A stretch of DNA of 44,026 bases from Rhizobacter sp. (lineage in GTDB: Bacteria > Pseudomonadota > Gammaproteobacteria > Burkholderiales > Burkholderiaceae_C), in the NCBI GenBank assembly GCA_025355745.1, contig JANXZA010000070.1, positions 1 to 44,026 on the forward strand. The letters run 5' to 3'. The position numbers were made by a program, and so were the translations under genes. Each line of letters starts with the position of its first letter. Within the stretch, counting starts at the first letter, position 1. Positions 22,998-31,015 of the stretch are shown piece by piece. Below the pieces are notes generated by a model. That model was not told the origin of the DNA. It saw nothing but the letters and a program-made list of their open reading frames with translations, and searched no databases.

Positions 22998-24596
22998 ATG
23001 AAATCCCATCGCAAGATTTCCACCCGGCTGGTGCCGCTGATGGCCGCCATCGGCGCGGTGTACGGCCTGGGCTCGTTGCCCGCCCTGGCCTCGAGCCACC
23101 GCGAAGCGCCGTCGATCACGACCTCGCCGAAGGTCGACGCCACCGACTTCTACATGTTCAACAGCTACGAGCCCGGCCGCACCGGCTTCGTCACGTTGAT
23201 TGCCGATTACCTGCCGGACCAGAGTTCGTATGGTGGCCCAAATTACTTCAAGCTCGACCCGAACGCGCTCTACGAGATCCACGTCGACAACGTCGGTGAT
23301 GCGAAAGAGCACATCACCTTCCAGTTCCGTTTCAAGAACGCACTGAAGGCCAAGACGTTGAAGATCGGCGACAAGGACGTGCAGATTCCGCTGACCCAAT
23401 TCGGTGTGGTTGCCGACCCGGCCGCCGCCACGCTCAACGTCAACGAGACCTTCACCGTCGACATCGTTCGTGGCGATCGCCGCAGCGGCGCGCGCGCATC
23501 GGTGACCAACGCGGCCGGCGGCAGCGCGACCTTCAACAAGCCTTCCGACAACATCGGCACCAAGACGATTCCCGACTACGCCGGCTACGCGGCCAAGCAC
23601 ATCTACGCCGTCAACATCCCGGGTTGCGCCACTCCGGGCAAGGTTTTCGTCGGCCAGCGCAAGGATCCGTTTGCCGTCTTCCTCGGCGGGATCTTTGACC
23701 TGGTAAACGTTCCGGGCGTGGCTGATTTCACGCCCGCCGAAGCGTCCTTCCTGCTCAACCCGGCCAACAAGGATGCGGCCACCGATGCGTTGAAAGACAA
23801 GAACGTCACCAGCCTGGCGCTCGAAGTCCCGACTGCGTGCCTGTTGGCAGCCGGCTCGGCCGACACGGTGATCGGCGGATGGACCACCGCCAGCCTGCGC
23901 CAGGGCAGCCTGCTCAGCGCCGCGCCAAAGTCCGGTTACCAGACCACCGCCATTGCGGGTGGAGCCTGGACCCAGGTCTCGCGTCTGGGCATGCCGCTCG
24001 TCAACGAGGTGGTGATTGGTCTGGGCGACAAAGACAAGTTCAACGGCTCGAAGCCGAAGGACGACGCGCAGTTCGCCACCTACGTGACCAACCCGACGTT
24101 GCCGGCGCTGCTTGAGATCGCGCTCGGTTCGCCGAACGTGGCACCGACCAACTTCCCGCGCAATGACCTGGTCACGACCTTCCTGACGGGCATCAAGGGC
24201 GTGAACCAGCCGGCGAATGTGGTGGGCTCTGAAATGCTGCGCCTGAACACCGCCATCCCGGCGACGGCTTATGCAAACCAGAACCGTCTCGGGTTGCTCG
24301 GTGGTCTGCTCGGCCCCGCGCCGCAAGACCTGGCCGGTTACCCGAACGGCCGGCGTCCGAATGACGACGTTGTCGACATCTCGTTGATCGCGGTAATGGG
24401 TGGCCTGTGCGTGGCCAACGGCGACGCTGACACCTACAAGTTCGGCGCGGCTTGCAAGCCGTCGGCAGCGCCGCTGGGTGCCGCTGTGTTCGGCCTGCAC
24501 GATGCTGTTGACCAAGCTGGCCCGAAGGTCCGTGCCGCAGGCCCGTTGCTGCCCGCCTTCCCGTACCTCGGCACCGCCTTGCCGGGCGCGTATTGA
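22998..24596 (+). CDS. Secreted DUF4331 domain protein
   Basis: 532 aa. A signal peptide spans the first ~34 residues (ending ALPALASS), and the mature start SSHREAPSITTSPKVDATDFYMF is the hallmark of DUF4331. Four cysteines in the mature part (GCATPG, TACLL, GLCVANG, AACKPS) could form disulfides. The function of DUF4331 is unknown. ATG 22998 has AAGGA 7 bases upstream; the frame extends upstream but without family sequence. It is the first gene of a cluster with a lipoprotein, a TPR-like protein and a HupE/UreJ-type membrane protein, which suggests a shared envelope role. Confidence 0.92.
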   Translation: MKSHRKISTRLVPLMAAIGAVYGLGSLPALASSHREAPSITTSPKVDATDFYMFNSYEPGRTGFVTLIADYLPDQSSYGGPNYFKLDPNALYEIHVDNVGDAKEHITFQFRFKNALKAKTLKIGDKDVQIPLTQFGVVADPAAATLNVNETFTVDIVRGDRRSGARASVTNAAGGSATFNKPSDNIGTKTIPDYAGYAAKHIYAVNIPGCATPGKVFVGQRKDPFAVFLGGIFDLVNVPGVADFTPAEASFLLNPANKDAATDALKDKNVTSLALEVPTACLLAAGSADTVIGGWTTASLRQGSLLSAAPKSGYQTTAIAGGAWTQVSRLGMPLVNEVVIGLGDKDKFNGSKPKDDAQFATYVTNPTLPALLEIALGSPNVAPTNFPRNDLVTTFLTGIKGVNQPANVVGSEMLRLNTAIPATAYANQNRLGLLGGLLGPAPQDLAGYPNGRRPNDDVVDISLIAVMGGLCVANGDADTYKFGAACKPSAAPLGAAVFGLHDAVDQAGPKVRAAGPLLPAFPYLGTALPGAY

Positions 24597-26143: not shown

Positions 26144-27445
26144 ATGCCGATGCGTCCCCTGTTCAAGGCACTGGTCTGCGGGCTGCTGTTCGGTTGGCTG
26201 CAGTTCCTGGCCGGCGGCGCCGCGCTGGCCCACAAATCCAGCGACTCGTATCTGCAGATCGACGCCTCCGACAAGGGGCTGGCGGTGCGCTGGGACATCG
26301 CGCTGCGCGACCTCGACGCCGCACTCGATCTCGACGCCGACGAAGACGGCAAGCTGACCTGGGCCGAAGTGAAGGCCGCCTGGCCGCGCGTGCAGACCTA
26401 TGCGATGGCGCGGCTGCAGATCGAAGGCTGCGCACTGCGCCCGGTGCGCCAGGCGCTCGAACGCCGCAACGACGGCGCGTATGCGGTGCTGTTCCTGAGC
26501 TCGGACTGCGTGCTGGCGAAGGCGCCGTCGATGGCCTACACGCTGCTGCGCGAGGTCGACCCGACGCACCGCGGCATCGCCAAGATTCAGCGCAGCGGCC
26601 AGCCGATGGTGCTGAGCCTGCTCGATCCGACGCGCCCGGCGGTGCTCGCGGCGGCATCGATTGCGACGCCGACAGCGAGCGCAGCAACAGCGATGCCCGA
26701 TGCGACGCTGACCAGCGCATCGAACATCGCGGGCGCGGCGGCGCTGCCGGGTTCGAGTCCGATGCCAAGCGTGATATTGCCCGCAAGCGCCAGGCCGAGT
26801 GCAGCCGCCGAGCCGGCGTTGACCGGCGCCACCGGCTGGGGCTTTTTGCGCGAAGGCATCCGCCACATCCTGACCGGCTACGACCATGTGCTGTTCCTGC
26901 TGTGCCTGCTGCTGCCGTCGGTGATGCGGCGCACGCCCGAGGGCTGGCGGCCGGTGGACAAGCTCTCGCAGGCGGTGCTGCCGTTGGTGGGCATCGTCTC
27001 GGCGTTCACGGTCGCGCACTCGATCACCCTGGCGCTGGCCGCCACGAAAGTGGTGTCGCTGTCGCCCGCGTTCATCGAGCCGGCGATTGCGGTGACCATC
27101 ATCCTGGCCGCGCTCGACAACGTCTGGCCGATCTTCCCGGTGCGCCGCGTCGTTGTGACCTTCTTCTTCGGCCTGATCCACGGCTTCGGTTTTGCCGGCG
27201 TGCTGGCCGAGCTGAACCTGCCGACCGCAGACTTCGCCTGGGCCTTGCTCGAGTTCAACGTCGGCCTGGAGCTGGGCCAGTTGCTGATCGTCGTCAGCGT
27301 CACTGCGGTGCTGTTCCTGTTGCGCCAGCGGCCGCACTACCGGGCATGGGTGATTCGCGGCGGCTCGTATGCGGCGATCGTGGTCGGCGTGCTGTGGCTG
27401 ATCGAGCGCACGGCGAACGTGTCGATCATTCCGATGGGAAGCTAG
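26144..27445 (+). CDS. HupE/UreJ-type membrane protein with periplasmic N-domain
   Basis: 433 aa. A signal peptide (to about A29) is followed by a periplasmic domain beginning HKSSDSYLQID, then an Ala/Thr/Ser-rich linker (about 165-225) and a C-terminal membrane domain with about six helices and GIRHILTGYDHVLFLLCLLLP, the HupE/UreJ_2 signature with conserved His and Asp. VAHSITLALA and LIHGFGFAGVL are also typical. In the periplasmic domain, D64-x-D-x-D-G-K-L-T-x-x-E75 fits a canonical 12-residue EF-hand loop. HupE/UreJ relatives move nickel or cobalt, but the transported species here is unknown. The stop codon overlaps the TAGAAT of the thrS promoter. Confidence 0.88.
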   Translation: MPMRPLFKALVCGLLFGWLQFLAGGAALAHKSSDSYLQIDASDKGLAVRWDIALRDLDAALDLDADEDGKLTWAEVKAAWPRVQTYAMARLQIEGCALRPVRQALERRNDGAYAVLFLSSDCVLAKAPSMAYTLLREVDPTHRGIAKIQRSGQPMVLSLLDPTRPAVLAAASIATPTASAATAMPDATLTSASNIAGAAALPGSSPMPSVILPASARPSAAAEPALTGATGWGFLREGIRHILTGYDHVLFLLCLLLPSVMRRTPEGWRPVDKLSQAVLPLVGIVSAFTVAHSITLALAATKVVSLSPAFIEPAIAVTIILAALDNVWPIFPVRRVVVTFFFGLIHGFGFAGVLAELNLPTADFAWALLEFNVGLELGQLLIVVSVTAVLFLLRQRPHYRAWVIRGGSYAAIVVGVLWLIERTANVSIIPMGS

Positions 27446-27448
27446 AAT
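27443..27448 (+). promoter_or_regulatory. Putative -10 box for the thrS operon
   Basis: TAGAAT lies about 33 bases before the leader-peptide start and overlaps the stop codon of the preceding gene. No good -35 box is present at 16-18 bases, so activity may need a factor or depend on sequence not evident here. Confidence 0.4.
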
Positions 27449-27480
27449 CCGGGCTCCAACGAAAGAGGACGGGAAAAGCC

Positions 27481-27528
27481 ATGAGGGTCATGACACCGCG
27501 AACTACCACCTTCTCGCTGAAGGTCTAG
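27481..27528 (+). CDS. thrS leader peptide (threonine attenuation)
   Basis: 15 codons: [15 protein letters not shown] then TAG. Four of 15 residues are Thr, with three in a row (ACT ACC ACC, 27502-27510). AGAGGA at 27464-27469 is a good ribosome site. It lies directly upstream of the terminator at 27573-27596 and the threonyl-tRNA synthetase gene. This is the classical design in which a ribosome stalled for charged Thr-tRNA prevents termination. The peptide itself probably has no function beyond sensing. Confidence 0.82.
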
Positions 27529-27531
27529 CCT

Positions 27532-27596
27532 GCCGCGCGTCTCGACCTGCTCTTCCCAACTTTTTCGTACAAGGCGCGGCTCAGTCCGCGCCTTTT
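27532..27596 (+). terminator. thrS attenuator: antiterminator strand and intrinsic terminator
   Basis: The terminator is GGCGCGG (27573-27579), a 6-base loop, CCGCGCC (27586-27592) and TTTT, with flanking AA/TT extending the stem to nine pairs. The competing strand GCCGCGC (27532-27538), four bases after the leader stop codon, pairs perfectly with GCGCGGC (27574-27580). A ribosome stalled on the Thr codons leaves 27532-27538 free to form the antiterminator; a ribosome that reaches the stop covers it and the terminator forms. Confidence 0.82.
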
Positions 27597-27613
27597 GCAT
27601 TCTGGAGTTTCCG

Positions 27614-29533
27614 ATGATCTCGATTCAATTGCCCGACGGCTCGAAGCGCGACTACCCGGGTCCGGTGACGGTGGCCGAGGTGGCCGCGTCGATCGGCGCC
27701 GGTTTGGCGAAAGCCGCGCTCGCCGGTCGCGTGGGGCTGGGCGCCGACGCCCGCGTCGTCGACACCAGCTTCATGATCGACGCCGACACGCCATTGGCCA
27801 TCATCACCGACAAGGACGCCGCCGGCCTCGATGTGATCCGCCACTCCACGGCGCACCTGCTCGCCTATGCGGTGAAGGAACTCTTCCCCGACGCGCAGGT
27901 GACGATCGGGCCGGTGATCGAGAACGGCTTCTTCTACGACTTCGCGTACCAGCGCCCGTTCACGCCCGAAGACCTGGTGGTGATCGAAGCCAAGATGGTC
28001 GAACTGGCAAAGATGGACGAACGCGTCGAGCGTCGCGTGCTGCCGCGCGACGCGGCGGTGGCGCACTTCAAGGCCATCGGCGAAGCCTACAAGGCCGAGA
28101 TCATCGCCAGTATTCCGGCCGGTGAAGATGTGTCGCTGTACCGCGAAGGCGCGTTCGAAGACCTGTGCCGCGGCCCGCACGTGCCGAGCACCGGCAAGCT
28201 CAAGCACTTCAAGCTGATGAAGGTGGCCGGCGCCTACTGGCGCGGTGATCACCGCAACGAGATGTTGACCCGCATCTACGGCACGGCCTGGGCGACGAAA
28301 GAAGAGTTGCAGCAACACCTGCACATGCTGGAAGAAGCCGAGAAGCGCGACCACCGCAAGCTGGGCCGCGAACTCGACCTGTTCCACATCGACGAGTTCG
28401 CGCCCGGCCTGGTGTTCTGGCATCCGAAGGGCTGGGCCGTGTGGCAGCAGGTCGAGCAGTACATGCGGCAGGTCTACATCGACTGTGGCTACCAGGAAGT
28501 GAAGGGCCCGCAGATTCTTGACAAGAGCCTCTGGGAGAAGACCGGCCACTGGGAGAACTACCGCGACAACATGTTCACGACCGAATCGGAGAAGCGCGAG
28601 TACGCGTTGAAGCCGATGAACTGCCCGGGCCATGTGCTGATCTTCAAGTCGCAGATGCGCAGCTACCGCGAGCTGCCGCTGCGCTACGGCGAGTTCGGCC
28701 AGTGCCACCGCAACGAGCCCAGCGGTGCCATGCACGGCATCATGCGCGTGCGCGGCTTTACGCAGGACGACGGCCATGTGTTCTGCACCGAAGACCACAT
28801 CCTCGAAGAGTGTGTGGCCTACACCGAGCAGTTGCGCAACGTCTACCGCGACTTCGGCTTCACCGACATCATCTACAAGGTTGCGACGCGCCCCGAACAC
28901 CGGGTCGGCTCCGACGCGCTCTGGGACAAGGCCGAGTACGCGGTGATGGAGGCGATGCGGCGCTCAGGCTGTGAGTTCAGCGTGGCGCCCGGCGACGGCG
29001 CGTTTTACGGGCCGAAGATCGAGTACACGCTGAAGGATGCGCTGGGCCGGCAATGGCAATGCGGCACGATGCAGGTCGACTTCAACACCGCCGAGCGGCT
29101 CGGCGGCGAGTACGTGACCGAGACCAGCGGCCGTGCCCACCCGGTGATGCTGCACCGCGCGATCATCGGCAGCTTCGAGCGCTTCATCGGCATGCTGCTC
29201 GAACACCACGCCGGCGCGCTGCCCGCCTGGCTGGCACCGGTGCAGGTCAGCGTGCTCAACATCACCGATGGCCAGGCCGACTACGCCCGGGATGTCGTCA
29301 AAACGCTGCAAAAACAAGGACTTAGGGTGGTGTCTGATTTGCGCAACGAGAAAATAACCTATAAAATACGAGAGCATTCCTTGCAAAAAGTCCCGTACAT
29401 CCTGGTCGTAGGCGACAAGGAGAAGGCAAACGGGGCTGTTGCGGTGCGCGCCCGGGGCAATCAAGACCTCGGTGCGATGCCACTGGCCGACTTCACACAG
29501 AAGATCGCCGCTGACATTGCCCAACGAGTCTGA
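27614..29533 (+). CDS. thrS: Threonyl-tRNA synthetase
   Basis: 639 aa, full length. Domains in order: TGS (about 1-61), editing/SAD domain (about 62-245) with HSTAHLL and the [10 protein letters not shown] zinc/editing motif, catalytic core (about 246-535) with [25 protein letters not shown] and [12 protein letters not shown], and the anticodon-binding domain. It charges tRNA-Thr in the cytoplasm. GGAG at 27604-27607 is six bases before the ATG, just after the attenuator T-run. The last ~200 bases are unusually AT-rich and hold a likely internal promoter for infC. Confidence 0.97.
29339..29367 (+). promoter_or_regulatory. Putative internal promoter for infC within thrS
   Basis: TTGCGC (29339-29344), a 17-base spacer and TAAAAT (29362-29367) lie in a distinctly AT-rich patch of an otherwise GC-rich gene. 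In E. coli, infC is also served by promoters inside thrS. It would let infC and the ribosomal genes be expressed when the thrS attenuator terminates. Confidence 0.55.
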
Positions 29534-30910: not shown

Positions 30911-31015
30911 CTGCACGGCGCTCATGCGCTGTGCAGCACGGCGAGCCCGGCCGGCGGCGACGCAGGGCCGGGCCAGCTTCCCAAGGCCGGCCCCGTGTGC
31001 GGCCTTTCTTGTTTT
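30911..31015 (+). terminator. pheS leader: hairpins and intrinsic terminator
   Basis: Three structures. First, CTGCACGGCGC/GCGCTGTGCAG (30911-30936, tcat loop). Second, GCCCGGCC (30945-30952) with GGCCGGGC (30966-30973). Third, a terminator AAGGCCG (30983-30989) / CGGCCTT (31000-31006) followed by TCTTGTTTTT, 13 bases before pheS. GGGCCGG (30965-30971) can instead pair with CCGGCCC (30987-30993), which would break the terminator. No Phe-rich leader peptide is present, unlike E. coli pheM. Confidence 0.6.

Follow-up and report, generated by a model that had tools for sequence, protein, structure and literature searches.

The stretch of DNA analyzed here (the window, 44,026 nucleotides from Rhizobacter sp. 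of the order Burkholderiales) carries thrS on its forward strand at 27614-29533, with an ATG at 27614 and the domains of threonyl-tRNA synthetase (ThrRS) recognized by Pfam. The upstream neighbor is a HupE/UreJ-like gene (26144-27445, Pfam HupE_UreJ_2), and a large DUF4331 protein is encoded about 1.5 kb upstream of the latter, at 22998-24596 (Pfam E value 7e-143). The region between the HupE/UreJ-like gene and thrS (27443-27613) contains a series of forward-strand elements, which in the model proposed below would regulate thrS. It begins with a -10-like box, TAGAAT (27443-27448), which overlaps the stop codon of the HupE/UreJ-like gene and forms part of a probable leader promoter. This is followed by a short leader ORF of 12 codons and a stop codon (27490-27528, TAG at 27526-27528), with leaders of the MTPRT or xxRTT type found at the equivalent place in many relatives. 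Direct reading of the ORF gives a Thr codon ACA at 27493-27495 and, after a CGA codon at 27499-27501, a run of three Thr codons, ACT ACC ACC (27502-27510), also present in relatives and referred to below as the control codons; comparison of leaders places the CGA codon within a conserved CGA-ACT block.

The initial annotation of this DNA had proposed a threonine-peptide attenuator in front of thrS, with a strand at 27532-27538 able to pair with 27574-27580. The two strands (GCCGCGC and GCGCGGC) are indeed exact reverse complements over 7/7 bases. The first, which we call strand 2, starts four nucleotides beyond the leader stop codon, spans nucleotides 4-10 after it, and would form the 5′ strand of an antiterminator. 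The second (strand 3) is the 5′ arm of an intrinsic terminator hairpin at 27571-27594, which together with its short U tract spans 27571-27597, with a TTTT run at 27593-27596. The leader stop lies 85 nt upstream of thrS, with the terminator in between, just before thrS as the annotation had it.

Folding of the Leader in the Window

The whole leader folds with -70.4 kcal/mol, a value that none of 200 shuffled sequences reached (z -3.8). The terminator segment on its own also performs better than its shuffles (z -2.6, 2/200 as good), and the pairing of strand 27532-27538 has a p value of 0.045, while the antiterminator segment is no better than shuffled sequence (z 0.04, 97/200). A simple terminator scanner did not report the hairpin, probably because its A-U pairs consume part of the short U tract (TTTTGCATT). 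When the RNA is truncated before the 3′ arm of the terminator the antiterminator fold appears, and longer RNA adopts the terminator. In the same way, with a stalled ribosome the antiterminator (-18.0 kcal/mol) is predicted before the terminator 3′ arm has been made, and with the ribosome at the stop codon the terminator is formed. The complete terminator is the minimum-energy form in all three full-length states that we folded, therefore the switch would have to be kinetic. Taken by itself, the window gives mixed evidence for more than chance pairing, so that the matter is decided by the relatives.

Threonine-Rich Leader ORFs in Burkholderiales

Two sets of thrS loci were compared. The first contained the best 80 of a longer list of named thrS loci, of which 79 were usable (L025 was dropped as it has no upstream DNA). 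The second was an order sample of 200 genomes across Burkholderiales, all 200 with a ThrS match at E ≤ 0.001, a few of them weak; loci were fetched for 149 of the 199 other genomes, namely those with the better-scoring ThrS, and prevalence in this sample consequently leans towards nearer relatives. Contig ends shortened 9 of 228 upstream regions.

Short ORFs in which three or more of six residues are Thr were present upstream of thrS in 47/79 best-listed named loci and in 52/149 order-sample loci, compared with 4.7 and 8.2 in dinucleotide shuffles. Raising the threshold to at least four Thr in six residues left 21/79 (0.0 in shuffles) and 26/149 (0.2), and requiring an in-frame CGA-ACN pair gave 50/79 (3.5) and 54/149 (6.9). 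The other large excesses at three in six were those of Val (58/149 against 14.8) and, in the best-listed loci, Glu (10/79 against 1.0). After removal of tRNA-like frames and of the ends of upstream genes these fell to 16/149 and 2/79, while Thr held at 47/79 and 49/149; the upstream gene behind the removed ends is presumably that of isocitrate lyase. Smaller excesses were seen for Phe (20 against 13.2 in the 149 loci) and, in the 79 best-listed named loci with a threshold of at least four, for Ser (9 against 3.6) and Pro (4 against 0.9). With the criteria joined, a leader is called in 53/79 best-listed named loci, 63/149 order-sample genomes and 22/44 families, a few of these calls being doubtful; the count includes nine loci added by their CGA-ACN signature, among which L175, L187 and L202 look doubtful. 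The leader occurs in at least two thirds of the sampled members in 17 of the 22 positive families, again with a few doubtful calls, and in none of those of the other 22. The conservation of the Thr codons, on which the original proposal could have failed, is thus borne out, as is its suggestion that the attenuator may be common in the order.

Further comparisons used a core set of 112 of the 124 leader calls. Twelve calls were dropped for lacking an R/L/P-Thr motif or a terminator, for their place or length, or, in the case of L026, by hand, though L158 and L215 among them resemble real leaders. Four core leaders (L023, L131, L142, L160) appear spurious by eye; they still count in the swap test, the geometry and the codon usage, and the folding test (69 clusters) and the prevalence count leave them out.

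MTPRTTT-type leaders recur about 110-325 nt upstream of thrS in relatives. The conserved start of these leaders corresponds to 27490 of the window and hence to a peptide of 12 codons. An ORF with the Thr run at 27502-27510 is therefore present as annotated, but the 15 codons assigned to it, which count from an in-frame ATG at 27481, are not upheld, and this ATG is at most an alternative start. The leader of the window accordingly provides the ORF with cognate codons that characterizes ribosome-mediated attenuators, its translation being predicted. Some leaders carry only two Thr codons. In one Polaromonas MAG (L011), about 150 nt before thrS, an ATA stands in place of the start codon and the Thr run is altered while the terminator is kept, which looks like a leader being lost.

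The conservation of MTPRT in a large group of lineages could also be accounted for by a nascent peptide that stalls the ribosome, or by an ORF that serves as a translation antenna, rather than by a response to Thr-tRNA charging. We regard this reading as barely plausible since other lineages surround the Thr codons differently (MSFRTTTT, MFKRTTTT, MTPRTLTETTSERR, MIQAPRTTT, MQLNRTTTTS and others), several of them keeping the Thr run only, since Leu or Pro can stand before that run, and since in the window a terminator separates the leader stop from thrS.

Terminator, Antiterminator and Ribosome Position

Of the 124 leader calls, 121 have a terminator of -8 kcal/mol or better downstream of the leader, compared with 109/372 shuffled trials; the U tract of the window's own terminator is short. 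Terminators also lie within 130 nt of thrS in 84/110 leaderless loci, so that a terminator alone proves little, and it may in part be an old terminator of the upstream gene. Among the leaderless relatives, which include L017, L018 and L023, some have the same GCGCGG stem in their terminator before thrS.

The pairing of strands 2 and 3 was assessed with an alignment-free swap test in 73 sequence clusters, in which the region of the leader stop was paired either with its own terminator 5′ arm or with the arms of other lineages. Own partners paired 1.34 kcal/mol better than swapped ones (z -5.0), and none of 5000 permutations was as good, whereas 3301/5000 were in a control that paired the region upstream of the leader with the terminator arm. 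The strand that pairs exactly in the window therefore belongs to a pairing that co-varies between lineages, as expected of an antiterminator. Tests on single sequences were modest (p ≤ 0.05 in 18/73 clusters, median 0.14). By eye, lineage-specific pairs can be recognized, such as GTCCGCG/CGCGGAC in L021, CAAGG/CCTTG in L039, GAGCC/GGCTC in L071 and TCGAGG/CCTCGA in L069, L070, L072, L073, L077 and L080. Weak or negative outcomes came from swap tests that set the leader codons against the terminator arm (1:3, 326/5000) or strand 2 against the upstream region (860/5000). An anti-antiterminator formed between the leader codons and strand 2 (1:2) is weakly supported, with 99/5000 in the swap test and p ≤ 0.05 in 6/73 clusters, and inspection shows it clearly in some loci, among them L009 and L113.

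The position of strand 2 is conserved as well. In 52/73 clusters the terminator arm finds its best partner at the leader stop, against 24.4 in shuffles, and in 66/73 strand 2 begins at least 12 nt past the start of the first Thr codon. Together with the folding, this suggests that strand 2 would be covered by a ribosome at the stop codon and uncovered by one at the control codons. When the ribosome is placed on the first Thr codon and the RNA downstream of it is folded, half or more of the terminator 5′ arm is held by upstream RNA in 60/69 clusters; for a ribosome at the stop codon the number is 35/69. The corresponding figures with a shuffled spacer are 47.2 and 35.0 of 69, which makes the excess of held arms at the Thr codon moderate. 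A motif near the leader stop, AGT(T/C)CG, was found in 49/96 loci against 14.1 in shuffles; it was discarded as evidence, since 27/96 loci also matched in a control region ahead of the leader, probably through T-loops of tRNAs. Altogether, the comparison with relatives confirms that the attenuator predicted in front of thrS is present and conserved, including the alternative stems on which the annotation had made its proposal depend.

Probable Promoter and Upstream tRNA Genes

Of 70 leader loci that have no upstream tRNA marker, 27 carry a TANAAT box at a distance of 25-75 nt before the leader ATG, compared with 2.1 in shuffles. Nineteen of these 27 boxes are located at 47-51 nt, and the TAGAAT of the window lies 47 nt before 27490. 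A scanner found no sigma-70-type site in the window, where a good -35 element is lacking. We consider a promoter for the leader near 27443 probable from these comparisons.

A tRNA-like marker was found within 340 nt upstream in 38/116 leader loci and in 57/110 others, and at such tRNA-bearing loci the leader may share the promoter of the tRNA. Six loci picked for an apparent tRNA (L066, L071, L135, L143, L151, L160) all have a tRNA-Val (GAC) upstream of thrS or its leader. The locus tag Rmet_R0015 of Cupriavidus metallidurans is one that we take to be an RNA gene. In a published start-site table of this organism (PMC9045368), thrS stands beside this tag.

The hairpin might then be nothing other than the terminator of the upstream transcription unit, that of the HupE/UreJ-like gene in the window and of tRNA-Val in some relatives, with the short ORF incidental to it. 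Both the frequent terminators of leaderless loci and the upstream tRNAs would fit such an arrangement. It does not predict the enrichment in Thr, a conserved leader, a strand that co-varies at its stop codon or the -10-like box, however, and we find it very unlikely.

Specificity of the Leader for thrS

A search for the leader string ATGACACCGCGAAC gives a single match in the genome of the window. In the 200 genomes it gave 23 matches, 18 of them directly before thrS and four elsewhere, while the one in G148 could not be placed as the thrS position is not listed; the reversed pattern, used as a control, gave three matches in the 200 genomes. No short ORF dense in the gene's own codons was found before thrC, leuS, ileS, hisS, trpS or proS in the genome of the window, where the maximum of two in six residues is within the shuffles, and no Phe-rich leader precedes pheS in this window. 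Own-codon leaders as a general strategy in this genome are therefore rejected for the six genes checked and for pheS. A terminator-like stem followed by TTCTTGTTTTT does lie directly before pheS (30965-31005).

Outside the order, the 30 best-scoring thrS loci of the class sample (27 usable, because the ORF taken was the wrong one in L243, L247 and L256) contained Thr-dense ORFs in 3/30 against 1.5 in shuffles, and on these figures a spread beyond the order was rejected.

The CGA-ACT Block

Of the 112 core leaders, 95 have CGA immediately ahead of the Thr run and 89 use ACT for the first Thr codon. Over all Thr codons of these leaders ACT is the most frequent, with 143 occurrences, followed by ACA (97), ACC (95) and ACG (66). 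Within thrS itself, counted over the core named loci (from the best-listed 80), CGA makes up 75 of 2100 Arg codons (3.6%), and ACT 71 and ACT plus ACA 132 of 1332 Thr codons. Where the residue at the CGA position changes, it becomes Leu or Pro and the codon still begins with C. Comparison of the leaders suggests that CGA-ACT, made up of two codons that are rare in the thrS genes, is conserved beyond the needs of the peptide. Theory holds, according to PMC1183508, that the choice among synonymous control codons sets the sensitivity of an attenuator.

Such conservation is what a binding site might show, and it raises the question whether ThrRS or another factor binds the leader RNA, with the Thr codons as a by-product, or whether uncharged tRNA binds it as in a T-box. 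E. coli offers a precedent, as its ThrRS represses its own mRNA; the E. coli operator, where ThrRS binds tRNA-like stems, however blocks translation, whereas an intrinsic terminator is present here. The surroundings of CGA-ACT moreover vary by lineage while the Thr codons persist, and no Rfam family matched the leader, either at gathering thresholds or at E ≤ 5, the Thr_leader (RF00506) and T-box models included. On this lack of matches a T-box, a riboswitch or any Rfam family was rejected, and binding of the leader RNA as the basis of control appears highly improbable.

It is tempting to speculate that CGA-ACT is a functional element in its own right, beyond the peptide and the weak 1:2 pairing, and makes the leader responsive to a further signal in addition to Thr-tRNA charging. 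We think this unlikely, though worth stating; were it true, the element could be, e.g., a slow pair of rare codons that sets the timing of ribosome and polymerase, or a site on the RNA recognized by a factor.

A Model for the Control of thrS

The comparisons make it very probable that thrS is controlled by a ribosome-mediated leader-peptide transcription attenuator of the classical type, a model for which we infer promoter use, translation of the leader, stalling of the ribosome and the regulatory response. RNA polymerase would start from the promoter near 27443, and a ribosome would translate the 12-codon leader. With enough Thr-tRNA, the ribosome would reach the stop codon (27526-27528) and cover strand 2 (27532-27538), so that the terminator hairpin (27571-27594) would form and transcription would end before thrS. 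Poor charging of Thr-tRNA would instead make the ribosome stall on ACT ACC ACC (27502-27510). Strand 2, which begins 22 nt past the last control codon, would then be left free to capture the 5′ arm of the terminator (27574-27580), and the polymerase would read on into thrS, yielding more enzyme when charged Thr-tRNA is short.

Discussion

The mechanism itself appears to be of the textbook type; what the comparison would add is the gene and the bacterial order. Like the classical attenuators of amino acid operons (trp, his, thr, ilv and leu, the thr leader being RF00506), the thrS leader has an ORF with cognate codons, an antiterminator, an intrinsic terminator and a predicted switch by ribosome position. 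It differs from them in that it precedes a synthetase gene instead of a biosynthesis operon, has no match in Rfam, and has a weakly supported anti-antiterminator.

Among synthetase genes, pheST has an attenuator in which a Phe-rich leader peptide, matching the amino acid of the synthetase, is combined with a terminator. The thrS leader is built on the same principle, with Thr and thrS in place of Phe and pheST, and in other taxa. The pheST attenuator is known in gamma-proteobacteria, as given in PMC1262725, which also describes leader-peptide attenuation as known or proposed for trpS and leuS in Streptomyces. For the His leaders of hisS paralogues in bacilli it is likewise known or proposed (PMC2965389); these synthetases, too, would be controlled through a leader peptide, for other amino acids and in other taxa.

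A parallel at the same gene is the thrL-thrS arrangement proposed in Streptomyces lividans TK24. In that report (PMC8079986), the leader has 18 residues with two Thr, the transcript is leaderless and no U-rich terminator was found. A Thr leader before thrS, proposed to be an attenuator, is common to both, and among the literature matches listed the S. lividans case is the only thrS leader peptide that came up. A Thr-peptide attenuator on thrS would be a distinct solution, as the initial annotation had it, but a Thr leader had already been proposed in this actinobacterium, whose case is set apart, judged by its description, by the intrinsic terminator and co-varying antiterminator found here. 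No report of a thrS attenuator in Burkholderiales was among the literature matches listed, and surveys of attenuation in aminoacyl-tRNA operons may already list beta-proteobacterial thrS; the available parts of PMC2965389, PMC4833913, PMC2659441, PMC3766115, PMC7011215 and PMC2864571 do not contain one.

With the attenuator proposed here, the thrS of a large bacterial order would join the set of genes controlled by leader-peptide attenuation. Elsewhere this gene is regulated by other means, in E. coli through translational repression by its own protein and in Firmicutes through a T-box, that is, by binding of a protein or direct binding of tRNA. Together with the leader described here, this would make thrS a clear case of one synthetase gene whose expression different lineages have linked to tRNA charging through different mechanisms. 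The attenuator would also permit a simple read-through assay of Thr starvation in Burkholderiales, and its distribution over half of the sampled families makes it suited to the study of how such a leader is gained and lost.
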